A stretch of DNA of 64,000 nt, taken from assembly GCF_019145475.1 (NCBI RefSeq), contig NZ_JAHTKI010000002.1, forward strand, positions 348,237-412,236, in the 5' to 3' direction. This stretch comes from Pseudomonas botevensis (GTDB taxonomy: Bacteria; Pseudomonadota; Gammaproteobacteria; Pseudomonadales; Pseudomonadaceae). The notes beneath the pieces were generated by a model that was not told the origin of the DNA, ran no database searches, and saw nothing but the letters and a program-made list of their open reading frames with translations. This document shows positions 30,144 through 64,000 of this stretch, in pieces; the stretch's first letter is position 1, and every line of letters begins with the position of its first letter. The translations under genes were made by a program, and so were the position numbers.

Positions 30144-31160
30144 TTAACCTGATGCCTTCGTGCCCGAAGCCGCTTTCAGGCGATAAGCGGCTGGGGAGCA
30201 GCCAAACCAGCGGTTGCAGGCGCGGTAAAAACTGCTGACCTCCTGAAACCCCAGACCTTTGGCGATCACCGCAGAACTCTGGTCGGTCGTACCGATCAAG
30301 TGGCGGGCGAGCTGCAAGCGGGATTCGTCCAAAAGCTCCCTGACCCCCGTTTGCTCCTCATCCAGCCGGTTACGTAGCATTCGTGGACTCAAATTCATGG
30401 CACTGGCGATACTTTCGAGTGAAACCACGACACCTGTGGCCAGACCCGAGACAATATGATTCTTCACCACGGAAGACATTTTTACGGGGAAGTTCTGGAT
30501 TTCCAGGTTGACCAGGTTGTCGTGATGAATTTTCAGTTCGGGAAATCCGGTTGGCAACTTCTGATTCCAGTCGTGAACAGAGATCGTTATTTTGTTGATC
30601 AGATTGGAAAATGTCAGATTTTCCCCGAAAAGGACTTTAAGTTTGCTTGTGTCGACAGGGGCTTCATAACTAAATGTTGTTGCGACAGGTACGACCTTGT
30701 TAAATGGCAGTAACCAATGAACAATTCCAATCAGCGTGGCAAAATAACAGTCTATATAAGATCTGGAAAGATTCAGTAGCTCCAGCCTAAGAAATACGAC
30801 GCTAAACGAGTCAGGCTCTTCAAGAACCAATAGTGGAGCTCCGTCCGACAATATTGCGGAGAGTCGCGAAAGAAGCAATAACGCGTCACCTAGAGTAGCG
30901 CTGGACATTAAAGGGTAGAGTTGGGATTGAAGTTGTCCTGGGTGAAACTCTTCATAACAGGCCAGCCCGATGTCTGTGTTTCCCGAGTCGGACTGTAGGC
31001 AGAGCATAAACTTCGATACGTCTTTTATTTTTGTCCGCTGCCCGCTATCCGCCAAAGCGTTCAAATAGTTGTATAGATTTTCTGTTTCATCAGATGTCGC
31101 TTGCGCATGCTCTTTTAATCTGAGCATGACTTTTGTACAGGACGGTGCAATGGTTGACAT
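30144..31160 (-). CDS. AraC-family regulator with Arabinose_bd-type N-terminus
   Basis: A 338-residue regulator. The N-terminal domain (about 20-210) shows YPLMSSATLGDALLLLSRL and the LLFxENLTFS pattern of the AraC_N ('arabinose-binding') type used in OruR-like proteins. The C-terminal HTH has VSLESIASAMNLSPRMLRNRLDEEQTG and VIAKGLGFQEVSSFYRACNRWFGCSPAAYR. It is a paralog of the gene 18 bp upstream. Codon use is AT-richer than in neighbours, which points to transfer or slow amelioration. Target genes are unknown. Confidence 0.88.
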   Translation of the reverse strand: MSTIAPSCTKVMLRLKEHAQATSDETENLYNYLNALADSGQRTKIKDVSKFMLCLQSDSGNTDIGLACYEEFHPGQLQSQLYPLMSSATLGDALLLLSRLSAILSDGAPLLVLEEPDSFSVVFLRLELLNLSRSYIDCYFATLIGIVHWLLPFNKVVPVATTFSYEAPVDTSKLKVLFGENLTFSNLINKITISVHDWNQKLPTGFPELKIHHDNLVNLEIQNFPVKMSSVVKNHIVSGLATGVVVSLESIASAMNLSPRMLRNRLDEEQTGVRELLDESRLQLARHLIGTTDQSSAVIAKGLGFQEVSSFYRACNRWFGCSPAAYRLKAASGTKASG

Positions 31161-31178
31161 AAGTAGGGATTCAGACCT

Positions 31179-32192
31179 TTAGCTTTTCTGGTTTTGTGCT
31201 CTTAGCTGACCAGGGGACAGAGAAAACCAACGCTGACAGGCTTTACTCAGGCTGCTTGACTGGCTGAAGCCGAGAATGGAGGAAATCTCCTTCAGGCTCA
31301 ACGCGGAGCTGGCGATCAAATTGCTGGCAAGTTCTTTTCTCAATGCCTCCTGGAGTGCAGAAAACGTTACACCTTCCTCTTCAAGGTATTTTTGCAGTGT
31401 GCGTTTACTCATGTTCAGGGTTGTGGCCATTTCCTGAAGCGAGATCAATCGTCCCTCGGTCATGCCGGAAGAAAATACTGAACGAACTTTTTCCATCAAT
31501 GAGCCATTTATTTTTTCTTCGAGTTGCGCATCGGCATATCGACGGTGAACGTCTTCAAATCCCGGGTTTCTGCTGTAAATCGATTTCTTTTTGATCTCGC
31601 TATCGAATACCAGGCGGATATGTGGCGCATCGAAATTGATGTTTTTACCGAATAGCCGCTGCAGATTTATCGTTTCAGCCGGCTTTGGATAGGGCAGATC
31701 TACAAAAACCGGCTGTAGTTTCAACGGAAACGCAAGCCAATGAATGAGCCCGAGAATAACGGCTGCTGCGGCGTCGATAATGTGCCGAGTGACTTCGGTG
31801 CTGGGTAATCCTTTATTGAAAGCCGAAATGATGAAGTGCTCGTTTTCGTCATCCAGTGTAATGAATGATGAGTCAGCCACTAATGGGTGATATTTGGCCA
31901 GGCGTTCAAGCGCGATGTCGAGGGTTGGACTGGACATCAACGAATAGCCGGCTATTCCAAAGAAGTCCGGTCTGGCATGTTTGTAGGCTGACAGACCGAT
32001 ATCCGCATCGCCTGAATACTGAGAGGCGTCATTAAAGAAACGACAGGCTATCGAAAGTTTTAACTTGTCATCGTCATTTTCTTCGATTAACTGCTCAGCG
32101 TAATGATTGACCAGCGATTTTATTTTAAAGTTGCTCGATGATATGGCCTGAATGATATTTCTGAAAGAACTTGCGGAAATCGTACACATCAC
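31179..32192 (-). CDS. AraC-family regulator, tandem paralog
   Basis: A 337-residue protein built like its downstream neighbour: AraC_N-type N-terminus with GYSLMSSPTLDIALERLAKYHPLV, then an HTH with ISLQEMATTLNMSKRTLQKYLEEEG and LKEISSILGFSQSSSLSKACQRWFSLSPGQLR. The two are clearly homologous but well diverged, so the duplication is old. It too is AT-rich. It is divergent from the EAL protein gene, 315 bp away. What either regulates is not visible here. Confidence 0.88.
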   Translation of the reverse strand: MMCTISASSFRNIIQAISSSNFKIKSLVNHYAEQLIEENDDDKLKLSIACRFFNDASQYSGDADIGLSAYKHARPDFFGIAGYSLMSSPTLDIALERLAKYHPLVADSSFITLDDENEHFIISAFNKGLPSTEVTRHIIDAAAAVILGLIHWLAFPLKLQPVFVDLPYPKPAETINLQRLFGKNINFDAPHIRLVFDSEIKKKSIYSRNPGFEDVHRRYADAQLEEKINGSLMEKVRSVFSSGMTEGRLISLQEMATTLNMSKRTLQKYLEEEGVTFSALQEALRKELASNLIASSALSLKEISSILGFSQSSSLSKACQRWFSLSPGQLRAQNQKS

Positions 32193-56802: not shown

Positions 56803-57969
56803 TCAGAACTCGTTTTCGTATGAAACATCAGGATAATAGGTCTTGTATCGAATTCCTGATAAATGGCCGCCAGGCAAGTTCTTGATTAAGTTGTATTTGG
56901 TTATGAGATTACTAGAGACCCCGGCTAAATCTGACACGTCAGCTTGGAATTCCCACTTCATTCCAAGACTAGAAATGCTATTTACTAACAACAACGCCTG
57001 CTCATATGTTGAGAGTTGTGCTCTGTACAGCTTGCCATAGGAATATTTTTCTTTCTCGCTTAAGTCAGGATGATCATTGAGATACGTATAACTTTGATAT
57101 AGGTGTCGAAAGTAATGCCCCAGCCTAAACTGATGTCCACCATAGTACTTATTATATGCTTTGCTCATATCAAATTCGTGAACAAGGGGGAACGAGGATT
57201 TCGGTTGCGACGGCTGCTTCCTGGCTTGGTAAAGGTCGTCTATTACTTTGTGAAAATTTTCGTATGTCAATTGATTAAGTCGCTCCCAGCTCTCAAATCT
57301 GCTTGCGTTAGAGCGTTTTGGCTTAAGCCTTATAAAATAAATAAGCTTATAATAATAGTCCTTGCTGAACTTGTTTATTATATTTGCCTTTATTATTGCC
57401 TCCCCCTCCTCCCCCAGACCGAAAAACACTATAAGGAACGCCAGATCAATGGACGCCATCTCGATAATATCTATTCCGGGATTTTGCTTCACAGCTATTG
57501 ATCTAAGTTTTTTCGCATAAACTGGATGGAGGTAGTCGAGCTCATTCTTGGAATTTGAGTATTTTCGAATTTCCCTGTAGCACTCAATAAATTCTTCAAA
57601 TATCAGTCGGGCAACCTGTCGATTCTCATACATATCATATTCACCCCCCATGAACTTTTTGTATCTAAATTCGCTGACATTTTCTCGATAAAGTTTCAAC
57701 ATTCCAAAAAAAGAAGATTCGAATGCAGAGCGCTTATTTTCTTTGGTTTGCTCCTTGAAGTTCATGTAAATAAGTAAGGTTCCGGACAATGCGAAAAATG
57801 TACCCACGACCCCACCGACGAAATCCCCAAACTGGCCGGTTGTCGGATAGTCAGTAGGATTGAAGCTGAATATGGTGTAACCGTCAATGGTAGCCTTGCC
57901 CACGAAGCAAGCAAGAACGACAGTGCCACAAAACAGTAAAACGATTGCGGATAGTTGGAGAAATCTCAT
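56803..57969 (-). CDS. Putative phage abortive-infection protein (putAbiC type)
   Basis: A 388-residue protein. Two membrane segments lie at about 5-24 and 50-70 (GQFGDFVGGVVGTFFALSG), then a coiled region, then a soluble domain with GHQFRLGHYFRHLYQSYTYL at 278-297. The N-terminal GDF-GG stretch and the HYFRHLY box are the hallmarks of the putAbiC family, thought to stop growth of infected cells. Base composition is much more AT-rich than the flanking chromosome. It stands 222 bp downstream of the large STAND gene on the same strand, so it could share its transcript or be an independent defence gene. Confidence 0.8.
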   Translation of the reverse strand: MRFLQLSAIVLLFCGTVVLACFVGKATIDGYTIFSFNPTDYPTTGQFGDFVGGVVGTFFALSGTLLIYMNFKEQTKENKRSAFESSFFGMLKLYRENVSEFRYKKFMGGEYDMYENRQVARLIFEEFIECYREIRKYSNSKNELDYLHPVYAKKLRSIAVKQNPGIDIIEMASIDLAFLIVFFGLGEEGEAIIKANIINKFSKDYYYKLIYFIRLKPKRSNASRFESWERLNQLTYENFHKVIDDLYQARKQPSQPKSSFPLVHEFDMSKAYNKYYGGHQFRLGHYFRHLYQSYTYLNDHPDLSEKEKYSYGKLYRAQLSTYEQALLLVNSISSLGMKWEFQADVSDLAGVSSNLITKYNLIKNLPGGHLSGIRYKTYYPDVSYENEF

Positions 57970-58191: not shown

Positions 58192-61100
58192 TTAAGCACA
58201 GAAATACCCTCTGATAAAAATCACATCCGGTACGGGTTGACCTACAAGTGTTTTCTTTCGATTATCCCCCTGCACTTTGATCGCCGTCTTTCTTAATTTT
58301 CTGAAAAGTGCTAAGAATTCCGGCCACTTGGTTTTATTTATGAATGTGTCAGATACCCGTTGATCCATGCAAAGTGTTGAGATAATCATACAGCGCCAAA
58401 ATTCATCCATGGTCGTAGCAAGAGATATTTCTCGCATCCATGATTTTGCCCATTGAGCCGCATCGTGGGCGGCCTTGGCTTTTTGCGCAGCCTGGCCCGT
58501 GATTCCTTTGTCATCGAAGTGCTCTTCAATTACGGACAGCCATTCTTCTGAACGCTCAGAAAATCCAGCCACACAGATCGCGAAGCATTTATCCAGCGTG
58601 GATGAACTGCGCACTTTTTCTTGCACGAAGTTCTCAATAAATGTCGCCGCACCGAACCGCTCCGCTGCCGCAACCTCCCGAGCGAGAACTTCGTCATCCC
58701 CCGCGGTTAAGAGCCGCTCCTCCCAGAACAAGTTAGTCGTTGAAGAAGGAGCGCTTGACCAAATCGCTTCATGTTCAAGGGTCAGCCCGTCAGCCAGTTT
58801 ATAGGTGATAAAGAACTGAGTTTTCTGAGCTCTTTTGAATAAACAAACTGCCACCTCGGGCATATCACTCGATATTAAATTAGCGACCACCAATGCCAAG
58901 TTTTTTAACCAACTAAATTCGGCATCACCTGCCTGCTCTAATATGCCAAGCATGGTTGGCAGCAGTGTGGGCACCGCTAGAGTCAGCAATCTCAGATCAT
59001 CGATCGTCACATGCTCCGTAAAAAGCAGCGCGTTCGCCCCCTTCAGCCTCGCGAAAAAGTCATCGGAGATTGCACGGAGTCGATCTTGCTTACCGTAAAA
59101 ATCTTCTTGAGAGCCAAATAATTCGGCGAAAACTTCTGGGTTGACAAATCGACTCGTCTCTTGCGCAGGTTCCTCAATTGACAGCATCGGATAGGGAGCT
59201 GATTCCGATGGTGTGAGCGTGAGCTGAACGCCCGGTGCTAAGATGCAACTAACCTCCTCAATTCCCAGCTCTAATCGCTGCAGGAAATGGGCGGCCAAAG
59301 GTTCCAGCATCTCTGAGCCAACGCGTTTGGCACACGTAAACCAAGTTTCTGGATGGACCCTATTTATAAGCTCTTCCACTTTAAGTTCATTCTTTTTGCA
59401 CGCATCTGCTAGCAGGATCGCGCCATACCACCTCTCTTTAGTCTGAGTGTCTAGGGTACGTCCAGACCAACCACTAAGGACGTGGGCATCTCTGATCGTT
59501 TTCAAGTTTTCTAGGGCAGCCAACTCTAGCACGAACGCCCTCCCTCTTACCGTTGTCGACTGGTAGCAACGAAGTAATTGTGACTCAAGCTCCTCTGTGA
59601 TGGGTGTACGACCGTATCGAGTAGCTGCGAGAACAGCATAAGTTTGCACCTCGTTGTCATCATCCAGCGCTAACTGCAGGGCTTTTCTGATTGCATCTGT
59701 GGATAGAGGCTTCAGCATTGGAATAACATTTAGCAGATAATCCGTGCCGAACACTGGATTACGCATGCAATCGAGCTGTTCCAGTGCTGATAGCTGTGGA
59801 GCCGCATACATGAATAAAAACATTCGCTGCGTATTTTGCTCGCGCCCGACAAGCGTAGCCACTACATCATCTTTGCCTTCAGTCATTCGTGCGATCAGCC
59901 GAAGAGCAATATCCCGCTTCATTAGAGGGGCGTACTGCATCCCATTTAGTATCAATTGACGTAACGGCATTGAAGTTCGAGTGAGAAGACCTGAAAGTAC
60001 CGAGCGAGCCTTCTCTAGCGCCTCTTCAGGGGCGAAGCGACAGGCTACAGGTAGAAACTCCTCAAATTGGCGATCCCTCGCGCTGGACGTCATGGATTGA
60101 AGGACACAATCGGGGTCAATGGCATTAAAGCGTTCTAGCTCACTGACCATATCGCCGGGTCGCATCGCGTTAGGGTTAGCAACGCTTAAGTGCCGCCATT
60201 CACTCAGTGCGGGCATGGCCTGGCGCACTATCTTGTCGCGCAGTAAGCGGGAGATTTCCTCAGCTTCTCTAGCTGCTGATTCATCCCCAGTGGCAAGCAA
60301 CATTCGTACGACAGTCCATTTTCCCCCTCTCGAGGTATCGGGTGATCGCAACGGTTCAATGGCTTTCAGAAAGGATTCCATCGCAGCTGCGCGGTCCGAA
60401 CTGTTAAAGGTCGTCAAATGGTCAAATGCTTTCCGAGCCCCCGAAGTATCTATATCCATCGAGAGACCGAGGCCAAAGAAGATAAAGCTTTCAGCGAATT
60501 CCGCAAGAGGCCGACCCGCCAGAAGCTGAAGTGCGACGCTGTAAAGATCATCTAACTGACCTTCTACCGCAGTCATTTTTTGCAGAAGCGTGCGTTCGAA
60601 AGCAGACAGAGAGTCAAGAGTCGCCTGAATTTCGATCGTCTTTTTCTCAAGTCGCTGTGTTTGTTCTTCTTCCGTTTGCTTCGGATATCTACTCACCTGA
60701 TCGAGTGCGTTATTGTTGTAGTAACGTAGCCACTTACGAACAGCCCCTGCGGCTATAGGCCAACCCTTATGTGACGCTGCAGTTGAGAACGCTGAATGAA
60801 CGAACCAGTCGTAATTAAGCCTTCGTCTTGACTCAAGTGTGAAAACACCTAGCAATTCAAACAGTGCCGTCGCTTGTGTTTTGACAATCCCCGCGAACTC
60901 TTCGAATCGTTGATCATCAACGTTCTGCAGAGTAGAAAAAGCGTCCAGCAGAACTGCGAATATAGTTTGGTTGAAGCGAACTGAGTCGAAAGCACAGATC
61001 ATCAAGGCGGCAAACACTACATCAACGGTCCGGTCCATTGCGTGAATGGGATCGATCAAGGTTGTCATTCGTTGCGAAAGGTCGTGGGCAGAGTGTTGCG

Positions 61101-62739
61101 CCTGCCAGAGCTGGTCAATGAGCGTATAACCGAGTGCCAGGGTCAGACCTTCCTCGCGAAGTTCATAAGTATCTCTTGGTCCATGGAGTGTCTGGAAAAA
61201 GCGCGTTTCGACCACCGCTATTGAGTCGGCCTCAAAATTATGAGGCGGCTCGTGTCGCATTACGCTGATACGCTCCAATACCTTTCTTGCATGATCGCTG
61301 AGACGTGCAGTCAGCTCTTTCAAGGTCTCTGATTCAAAGTTTTCCCGTTGTGAAGCTCGTAAATGCTCAAAGAGAAGTCTGTCAGTCGTGAGCCCTTTCC
61401 AGGCGAGAGAACTCGTGTGAGGCATCGTCGCGATTGCAACTCCGAGCAACCGGGGATTTCGAAGGGTGCAGAGGGTTCCCTCGTCAAGCCAATCATGGCG
61501 GATACCGTGATGCGTCAGTATTTGATCACGTTCGTCCGGTGACCACTCTGGCACCTCGATTTGTATTGGTTCGAAAGAAAGACCTGGAGCAACAATTTTT
61601 AACCAATATTGCGGGCGAGCAGTAACAACCAGACACCCGCCGATGGCGAATAATCTTTCCCTCAAACCATTTAGGATAAGGTGCCATCGCCGACTTTGTC
61701 GCTGATTGACACCGTCGACGACCATCAGTAATGGAAGAGCCGGCGGTTGATGTTTCCAAGCAGCAAATCGATGGCGCCACCTCAGTTTCACAGTTTCATC
61801 TGAGACATCACCAGTCTGACTTATCAGAAGTTCAACTATAAAGTCGTCGAGATCTTTAACGTTGACTTCATCAAATTGCTCTGCACTTGAAAAAAGAGCC
61901 AGACCTTCATGGTCCCAGCAGATTTGCGCCGCTAGCCAAGACTTTCCATGCCCCTCACCACCGGTTAAGACTATGGGCTGACCAATTTGCAGGCTGTCCT
62001 TGACCTGTTGCCGCAGAGTTGCCCGCAGTGGCAGTGAGCACGATTTGGCGATTACCAATGCTTGTCCTAACCGTTCTCGCGCGATGTGTTCAGAGCCAAA
62101 CGATTCAATGCGCCATGTTTTATTCAGCTCGGTCGACCGTGCCGTTGCTAGAGTCGAAACGTTCAAATTCGACTTGAGTTTTTCCAGCAGGGTGTGAAAC
62201 CGAGGGTCATTGGTGATGACTTCGAATGTTCGGGAAAGCTCTTGGCAATCAGGTTTTGGATTGCAATGTGTCATCAAAAAATCAGTAGCCTCATTAGCCG
62301 CCGCTACAGTGGCGATAGCCAAGAGGGGTAATGGATCAGCCCAATCAAGCATAAGAGTGGAAATAGCATGTTTGTCGCCGTCTTCTTGCAATGACTTCGC
62401 TAACTGCGCGGCAATTTCACTTGTCGCAGCTAGTACCCAGAGCCGGTCTGGTGACTCGCTCTTACGTGAAAGGTCTGCAATTTTTGTCAGGACTTCATTT
62501 CGAGGAACAGAGCCTGAGTAACGCTTTGCCTCGAAACACACAGCATCAATTCGCAATGCCGCATCACCATCTACCCCCCCTTGGAGACCACTTGCGGCTA
62601 ATCTAAAAGGAACGCTGGTCAGTGCAGTAAGGACTACCCTGACAAATCCTTCAAAGCCTGTCGCTCCCGCTGCATCAAGCGATAGCAGTACGCCCTTGAG
62701 ATATTCGAGCCGCTCTCTAGTCAACTCCTCGAATGACAT
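58192..62739 (-). CDS. Avs-like STAND ATPase with N-terminal PD-(D/E)XK nuclease
   Basis: A 1515-residue cytosolic protein. Residues 1-135 form a restriction-endonuclease-like domain: GLQGGVDGDA supplies the acidic residues (Asp57/Asp59) and CFEAKRY the Glu70-x-Lys72 pair, as in Mrr/Cap4-type nucleases. A P-loop NTPase follows: Walker A GGEGHGKS (260-267), Walker B LLMVVDG (337-343) and a sensor-like VVTARP (371-376), a NACHT/STAND pattern. From about 450 to the end it is all-helical and probably repeat-forming, without an obvious catalytic motif. This order matches antiviral STAND (Avs) proteins that cut DNA after binding a phage protein. AAGGAG precedes the ATG. GC content is lower than in the core genes. 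Which Avs type, or a new one, cannot be decided by eye. Confidence 0.85.
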   Translation of the reverse strand: MSFEELTRERLEYLKGVLLSLDAAGATGFEGFVRVVLTALTSVPFRLAASGLQGGVDGDAALRIDAVCFEAKRYSGSVPRNEVLTKIADLSRKSESPDRLWVLAATSEIAAQLAKSLQEDGDKHAISTLMLDWADPLPLLAIATVAAANEATDFLMTHCNPKPDCQELSRTFEVITNDPRFHTLLEKLKSNLNVSTLATARSTELNKTWRIESFGSEHIARERLGQALVIAKSCSLPLRATLRQQVKDSLQIGQPIVLTGGEGHGKSWLAAQICWDHEGLALFSSAEQFDEVNVKDLDDFIVELLISQTGDVSDETVKLRWRHRFAAWKHQPPALPLLMVVDGVNQRQSRRWHLILNGLRERLFAIGGCLVVTARPQYWLKIVAPGLSFEPIQIEVPEWSPDERDQILTHHGIRHDWLDEGTLCTLRNPRLLGVAIATMPHTSSLAWKGLTTDRLLFEHLRASQRENFESETLKELTARLSDHARKVLERISVMRHEPPHNFEADSIAVVETRFFQTLHGPRDTYELREEGLTLALGYTLIDQLWQAQHSAHDLSQRMTTLIDPIHAMDRTVDVVFAALMICAFDSVRFNQTIFAVLLDAFSTLQNVDDQRFEEFAGIVKTQATALFELLGVFTLESRRRLNYDWFVHSAFSTAASHKGWPIAAGAVRKWLRYYNNNALDQVSRYPKQTEEEQTQRLEKKTIEIQATLDSLSAFERTLLQKMTAVEGQLDDLYSVALQLLAGRPLAEFAESFIFFGLGLSMDIDTSGARKAFDHLTTFNSSDRAAAMESFLKAIEPLRSPDTSRGGKWTVVRMLLATGDESAAREAEEISRLLRDKIVRQAMPALSEWRHLSVANPNAMRPGDMVSELERFNAIDPDCVLQSMTSSARDRQFEEFLPVACRFAPEEALEKARSVLSGLLTRTSMPLRQLILNGMQYAPLMKRDIALRLIARMTEGKDDVVATLVGREQNTQRMFLFMYAAPQLSALEQLDCMRNPVFGTDYLLNVIPMLKPLSTDAIRKALQLALDDDNEVQTYAVLAATRYGRTPITEELESQLLRCYQSTTVRGRAFVLELAALENLKTIRDAHVLSGWSGRTLDTQTKERWYGAILLADACKKNELKVEELINRVHPETWFTCAKRVGSEMLEPLAAHFLQRLELGIEEVSCILAPGVQLTLTPSESAPYPMLSIEEPAQETSRFVNPEVFAELFGSQEDFYGKQDRLRAISDDFFARLKGANALLFTEHVTIDDLRLLTLAVPTLLPTMLGILEQAGDAEFSWLKNLALVVANLISSDMPEVAVCLFKRAQKTQFFITYKLADGLTLEHEAIWSSAPSSTTNLFWEERLLTAGDDEVLAREVAAAERFGAATFIENFVQEKVRSSSTLDKCFAICVAGFSERSEEWLSVIEEHFDDKGITGQAAQKAKAAHDAAQWAKSWMREISLATTMDEFWRCMIISTLCMDQRVSDTFINKTKWPEFLALFRKLRKTAIKVQGDNRKKTLVGQPVPDVIFIRGYFCA

Positions 62740-62765
62740 TTTTCACAATCTCCTTATATTTTGGG

Positions 62766-62791
62766 TGTAGTGGTCTAATGAAACCGGACAC
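62766..62791 (+). repeat. IS left inverted repeat
   Basis: A 26-bp terminal repeat: ten outer bases and eight inner bases match the right end exactly, with a diverged 8-bp middle. Confidence 0.85.
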
Positions 62792-62829
62792 CCATTTAGG
62801 CGAGAATGCTCGCCAGATAGAGGTGTCTG

Positions 62830-64000
<1,171 letters not shown>

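Follow-up and report, generated by a model that had tools for sequence, protein, structure and literature searches.

Avs proteins are defined by an N-terminal effector, a central STAND ATPase and a C-terminal sensor, and Avs1-4 are described as nucleases for which terminase, portal or Ksap1 is what is sensed (PMC12931631). bNACHT25 and bNACHT32, of clade 6, are described as PD-(D/E)XK-NACHT proteins that defend by DNA degradation, with the nuclease required for defence (D48A) (PMC12169576), while Mrr_cat-STAND-repeat proteins are reported from a P4-like satellite hotspot (PMC9122126), and DefensePredictor includes validated PD-(D/E)XK and NACHT systems (PMC13092281). Here, we describe a gene of Pseudomonas botevensis at positions 58192 to 62739 of a 64,000-nucleotide stretch of contig NZ_JAHTKI010000002.1 (this whole stretch is called the window, and the gene product the window protein). 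It encodes 1515 residues comprising a predicted Mrr-like nuclease, an ATPase homologous, by profile comparison, to those of Avs2, Avs3 and Avs4, and a predicted helical solenoid, and is likely a lone NLR-like sensor of phage infection, expected to cut DNA upon detecting a phage product. The PD-(D/E)XK-NACHT defence nuclease is already known as a kind; the window family is a variant of it that has its own sensor and in whose extended Walker B motif DE has almost always become NQ.

Compared by description, the window protein resembles bNACHT25 and bNACHT32 in its N-terminal PD-(D/E)XK DNase, central NACHT and C-terminal sensing part (PMC12169576), is of the same kind as the P4-like satellite proteins, and may have a relative in one of the DefensePredictor PD-(D/E)XK/NACHT systems, again known by description only. 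Clade 6 bNACHTs carry NCH1, whereas none was found at E ≤ 1 in the window protein (with the NCH1 content of the Pfam copy unchecked). The three-part Avs architecture is likewise found here, with predicted effector and sensor roles, but on sequence grounds the protein should not be filed under any of Avs1-5, because no Avs profile matched it: a comparison with PADLOC, proposed in an earlier sequence-only reading of this DNA, and one with NCBIfam returned 0 families at E ≤ 1, and the PADLOC Avs2 profile matched 1 of 31 family members (E 0.029). Avs4 (AVAST type 4; PDB 8dgf; NCBIfam NF041815), whose NCBIfam and PADLOC profiles gave no match here, has a Walker B reading VIDSAE in 95 of 111 Avs4 proteins against VVDGVNQR in the window protein, and its nuclease and sensor profiles did not match. 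Avs3 (NF041816) and Avs2 (NF041813) share the ATPase profile with the window protein but not the nuclease and sensor profiles; the Avs2-type box, readable in 2 of 5 proteins, is D-A-I/V-N-E and aligns to D-G-h-N-Q here, so that its Glu corresponds to Gln. Unlike the window family, Avs4 also has matches without its N-terminus: in four loci (L026, L027, L028 and L029) the Avs4-profile match begins only at position 162-187, perhaps reflecting a different N-terminal effector joined to an ATPase and sensor of the Avs4 type.

Relatives and distribution

A protein search with the window protein recovered 183 proteins at E ≤ 1e-3 (7996 candidates scored), the best 120 of which are 1456-1532 residues long and at least 46% identical to it; the nearest relative among the matches listed is a Pseudomonas protein at 86% identity. 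A second search, with a plasmid relative as query, recovered 382 proteins at E ≤ 1e-3, a set that may overlap with the first. Conservation was read from a wide alignment of 242 rows (120 from the first list, including the window protein, 112 of 120 from the second, and 10 loci), from which 8 second-list proteins under 1400 residues were left out and whose rows are not independent (e.g., L019 duplicates P0241). Identity to the window protein is 26-30% among the 112 aligned proteins from the second search. Start and end points are about the same among relatives, and the full-length relatives, together with the intact open reading frame (ORF), bear out the single protein of 1515 residues claimed in the sequence-only reading. 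One member (L010:10028-14362) lacks, by eye, about 60-70 residues near the predicted sensor beta-hairpin (about 1155-1230 in window-protein numbering), a region that may be dispensable or a gene that may be decaying. In another locus (L065, G1085:C25), a 716-residue frame matches the family profile at positions 12-63 alone, where the nuclease begins (22.7 bits).

Taxonomically, the family is rare and patchy among the genomes sampled. Strong matches were found in 1 of 297 genomes of the same genus, 2 of 368 of the class and 3 of 397 of the phylum, in each case besides the genome of origin and leaving uncounted one 19.2-bit match, two 17-18-bit matches and three weak matches, respectively; one genome is common to the class and phylum samples, and since scoring was limited to 2 candidates per genome, these counts are lower bounds. 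Relatives occur in 12 plasmid records, 6 of which cover 89-100% of the window protein at 24-30% identity. There was no relative in 50,697 phage records, a pattern-limited scan of IMG/VR gave 48 pattern matches and 0 relatives, and a comparison of 4,000 of the 4,548 bases of the gene with 5,426 E. coli genomes gave no match at the DNA level. We also considered effector swapping, and a 31-row family profile searched against 369 class and 398 phylum genomes found no substantial relative with another N-terminus, with ATPase-only rows scoring 17-19 bits. Among the matches listed, the relatives' source names are mostly absent or "hypothetical protein", with "NACHT domain-containing protein" in a few cases and "restriction endonuclease" in one. 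Since the profile libraries are unmatched and source names generic, annotation likely misses members of this family, of which we found no description in the open-licence literature.

Domain architecture

The features of the gene are as follows, with row counts referring to the wide alignment.

58192..62739, minus strand: whole gene, encoding the 1515-residue protein with predicted Mrr-like nuclease, STAND/NACHT and helical sensor (intact ORF, ATG start; stop codon 58192-58194)
62305..62688, minus strand: predicted PD-(D/E)XK nuclease, Mrr-like, residues 18-145 (hhalign to Mrr_cat proteins; alpha/beta model elements)
62569..62571, minus strand: D57, predicted metal-binding Asp (241/242 rows)
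62524..62532, minus strand: E70-x-K72, predicted catalytic motif (each residue 241/242 rows)
61105..62157, minus strand: STAND/NACHT ATPase with helical and winged-helix-like part, residues 195-545
61939..61962, minus strand: Walker A GGEGHGKS, residues 260-267 (G260, G265, K266 and S/T267 in 240/242 rows)
61699..61722, minus strand: Walker B and extended Walker B VVDGVNQR, residues 340-347 (D342 in 242/242 rows)
61702..61704, minus strand: Q346, at the motif position of human NLRP3 E306 (motif alignment)
61615..61617, minus strand: R375, sensor 1 arginine in VTARP (239/242 rows)
58195..61104, minus strand: HEAT/ARM-like helical solenoid in the model, predicted sensor, residues 546-1515 (model and Foldseek)

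The N-terminal profile aligned to seven Mrr_cat proteins over 96 columns (hhalign probability 73%, E 3.1e-5), against E 0.57 for the reversed control; the alignment places FE, GGxDG and (E/Q)AKRY in register, as well as E30, D57, E70 and K72. D57, E70 and K72 are jointly present in 241 of the 242 rows, and each is found in 120/120 close relatives; columns in which one row or none deviates number just 29 of 1515, these three residues, N345 and Q346 among them, and E30 and K86 (237/242 each) are near-invariant. The active site had been read from the sequence as Asp57/59...Glu70-x-Lys72, of which D57, E70 and K72 hold up, whereas D59 falls outside the invariant and near-invariant lists. The model of this part contains helix 29-41, strand 67-72, helix 80-91, strand 99-105, helix 111-123 and strand 126-131, with the fold only partly modelled and the strand around D57 poorly so; neither absence of a nuclease fold from the first 135 residues nor a profile match to a non-defence ATPase was seen. 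A nuclease of Mrr-like type is thus predicted and moderately supported, which retains half of an initial Mrr/Cap4-like assignment; the Cap4 half finds no support because the nuclease profile did not match Avs3 (hhalign), whose nuclease we take to be of the Cap4 type, nor did it match Avs2 or Avs4.

The Walker A and Walker B motifs named in the sequence-only reading lie at residues 260-267 and 340-347. By profile comparison the ATPase is homologous to those of Avs3 (hhalign 95-97%), Avs2 (93-94%) and Avs4 (92-94% with wider alignments; 10-31% with close relatives alone, in a full-length comparison), with reversed controls negative, and there was no match to Avs5, represented by one distant protein that scored 222.6 bits where the cut-off is 1000. 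At E ≤ 0.1, Pfam NACHT (PF05729) was matched by 26 of the 31 members. Structurally, the top Foldseek match of a model of residues 1-640 is Avs4 bound to phage portal, which, with the profile matches to Avs2-Avs4, agrees with the Avs-like layout of nuclease, STAND and helical parts first suggested for this gene.

The remaining ~970 residues are supported, as far as sequence profiles reach, as a new sensor family. Only one Pfam match follows the ATPase, far below its cut-off, and the sensor profile matched none of the Avs2, Avs3, Avs4 and Avs5 sequences tested (E ≥ 0.05), a test that likewise leaves the sensors of Avs2 and Avs4 unmatched to each other. A sequence search of solved structures, with the single protein and with profiles, gave nothing meaningful. 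The model of residues 430-1515 (mean predicted local distance difference test score, pLDDT, 85.0; predicted template modelling score 0.81) is nearly all helix, interrupted by a small number of short beta segments, of which the hairpin at about 1172-1189 is the longest, in line with the roughly 1000 helical residues counted from the sequence. Foldseek matched this modelled solenoid to a spliceosome SF3B1-type chain, RanBP5, Kap121 and CAND1; HEAT/ARM solenoids dominate the best 50 Foldseek and 50 VIA matches listed, which include no Avs, a result that does not exclude a relation. The suggestion that this may be a new branch whose sensor is unrecognised therefore stands within the reach of sequence profiles, and such a sensor would likely mean a new phage trigger.

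Proposed function

We posit that, at rest, the ATPase and solenoid would hold the nuclease monomeric and off, that the solenoid would sense a phage-made protein or a disturbance caused by such a protein, and that the ATPase would then take up ATP and the protein oligomerise. This would bring the nuclease domains together to cut phage and host DNA, resulting in abortive infection.

Several observations weigh against this reading. The Mrr match is moderate (73%) and drops to 30% when the 31-row profile is used, Pfam Mrr_cat picks up 2 of 31 members, both weakly (best E 0.048), and at E ≤ 1 does not pick up the window protein, the nuclease profile is without a match in Avs4, and residues 49-65, the stretch with D57, are modelled at pLDDT below 50. 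The structural match to Avs4 has low TM-scores (template modelling; 0.28 and 0.14), and the Pfam NACHT match scores 25.0 bits, below the curated cut-off of 26.7 (28 bits, above the cut-off, in a six-frame search). In addition, no defence gene was counted in 11 of the 14 neighbourhoods L001-L014, in each of which 1-3 ORFs were scanned.

It is possible, if somewhat unlikely, that the same machine senses infection indirectly, guarding a host factor (e.g., a chaperone) rather than binding a phage protein. Such an arrangement has a precedent in bNACHT25, which depends on host DnaJ and whose activating coat protein is reportedly not bound directly (PMC12169576). The C-terminus of the window protein is, in contrast, modelled as a solenoid of ~970 residues, and the top N-terminal Foldseek match, Avs4 with phage portal, is a case of direct binding; neither point is decisive.

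The extended Walker B motif

A feature that the sequence-only reading did not mention is the replacement of DE by NQ in the extended Walker B. The NLR consensus for this box is given as hhhhD[GAS]hDE, from which some NLRs depart, Ipaf/NLRC4 for instance having NE (PMC2323615). Most NLRs, human NLRP3 and NOD2 being the reference here, read hhhhDGxDE, whereas the window family reads D342-G343-h-N345-Q346, with N345 and Q346 each in 241 of 242 rows and a last residue equal to that of the artificial NLRP3 mutant E306Q. As a background, we used 30 loci retained from the highest-scoring PF05729 matches across 299 phylum genomes; 25 had boxes readable by a Walker A/B pattern, 20 of them with D-G, the last residue being E in 18 and H in 2, and Q occupied the last place in 0 of the 25. 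The sole row with Glu at 346, L023 (10001-14650), is a natural test case for the role of the Gln.

Functionally, NLRP3 E306Q is reported to turn over ATP at 0.22 of wild type with raised speck formation and the strongest cell death that its authors had observed, leading them to suggest that it may never attain the resting state (PMC9633759); the mutant thus seems hyperactive. In PaAvs5-1, which has a different Walker B, Glu410Gln is described as protecting and Glu410Ala as losing protection, and the authors hold that nucleotide binding outweighs catalysis (PMC12931631). Since Q346 and N345 replace the box Glu and Asp in almost all rows, the window protein probably hydrolyses ATP weakly, and the ATP-bound state would therefore be a latch, staying on once set; we infer that the family may be a natural low-hydrolysis switch silenced by its own sensor. 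Taken further, these would be widespread bacterial NLR-like nucleases with a fixed "E306Q" change that keep ATP bound and hardly hydrolyse it, forming a one-way latch that the giant HEAT-like sensor alone holds off before infection and that is triggered by a phage product no known Avs or bNACHT senses. We offer this extended version tentatively and consider it rather doubtful, the more so as double mutants of the NLRP3 box either retain more turnover or do not assemble: D305A/E306Q retains 0.42, above the 0.22 of E306Q, while D305A/E306A and triple mutants are described as unable to assemble an inflammasome (PMC9633759). As these double mutants behave otherwise, NQ need not behave like E306Q, and the background set is also small (25) and drawn from the strongest NACHT matches.

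The need for ATP hydrolysis in NLR-type switches is debated, NLRP3 E306Q being slow and yet causing the strongest cell death seen by its authors (PMC9633759), and a natural family that has Q in 241 of 242 rows and apparently acts as a single gene would open this question to experiments in bacteria. It raises the questions of how the protein stays silent and what effect Q346E would have.

Gene neighbourhoods and alternative roles

We compared 21 neighbourhoods (L001-L014, L019-L024 and the window). For L001-L014, 27 larger ORFs, 1-3 per locus, were searched with Pfam and all save one also with PADLOC; L019-L024 were covered by existing record annotations plus 3 ORFs of L021. A known or candidate defence gene occurs in 8 of the 21, a raw count without a background rate. 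The relevant neighbours are as follows.

L002, 5207-8964, same strand, ~41 bp downstream: Avs4/PDC-M54A-like protein (PDC-M54A E 1.4e-11, Avs4 E 2.9e-10)
L012, 15018-19760, same strand, ~480 bp downstream: PDC-M54A protein (1182.7 bits)
L005: Drt3a and Drt3b (DRT3), with TrbL also adjoining
L019 and L020, near-identical: XamI-type restriction system, and a helicase/partner pair clustering with the HamA region of L023
L023: HamA (Hachiman), integrase alongside
L024: RloB with AAA ATPase, and VapC, integrase alongside
Window, 56803-57969, minus strand, directly downstream with a 222-bp gap: putAbiC-family protein of 388 residues (PF16872, E 3.2e-18; GC content 40.5%)

In L002 and L012, the second large protein downstream makes tandem pairs possible. 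Left uncounted as defence were HipA in L004, an HNH endonuclease in L022 and a UvrD/PDDEXK pair in L021, the last because its PADLOC GajB/UvrD matches and PDDEXK_1 neighbour look like a housekeeping AddAB-type nuclease-helicase. In L013, purL and guaA lie nearby, and no ORF scanned had a defence match.

These surroundings bear on what such a nuclease would act against. Plasmids or other mobile elements, rather than phages, would be its main target only improbably. Relatives are carried on plasmids (the 12 records above) and mobile-element genes lie nearby (TrbL at L005, integrases at L023 and L024), but several neighbours are of anti-phage types (DRT3, Hachiman, restriction), and phage proteins are what Avs relatives are described as sensing (PMC12931631).

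A role as a lone anti-phage sensor also fits the absence of a recurring companion: a conserved accessory gene was sought in an all-versus-all ORF comparison of 22 loci and the window, and none emerged. The stand-alone character initially proposed for the gene is supported because a conserved partner was not found in the loci compared. A two-part system with putAbiC is accordingly very improbable: the two genes are adjacent on the same strand and both low in GC (0.497 for the window gene, 0.405 for putAbiC), and putAbiC is a putative phage abortive-infection family with relatives in 3 plasmid records, but 0 of 26 family loci, some of them short, held a putAbiC relative at E ≤ 1. STAND proteins also act as regulators, so a non-defence regulator or housekeeping host protein may be named, the least credible of these options given the conserved nuclease site, patchy spread, low GC with a flanking insertion sequence (IS), and defence neighbours in 8 of 21 loci.

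Gene, reading frame and flanks

The length of the ORF is not due to chance, since 500 mononucleotide shuffles of the gene stretch gave a longest stop-free run of 286 codons against 1515. The gene has a GC content of 49.7% compared with 58.7% in the first 50 kb of the window. Two features precede it.

62750..62755, minus strand: Shine-Dalgarno-like AAGGAG, 10 nt ahead of the ATG (read from sequence)
62766-64000, directly upstream of the gene: IS3-family element, with ends alike at 21/26 bases, running to the contig end (C22)

The IS3-family element starts 26 bp ahead of the start codon and may part the gene from its native promoter, in which case this copy is possibly silent. A promoter scan of 62650-63000 found no site on the gene's strand and two on the plus strand. 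Three other contigs are capped by 35-36-bp ends of the same element, and the GGG beside its left end was repeated by no flank seen among these three. Elsewhere in the window, GC dips to 46% at 30144-32192, around two adjacent regulators of 338 and 337 residues that by eye appear AraC-like and mutually alike.
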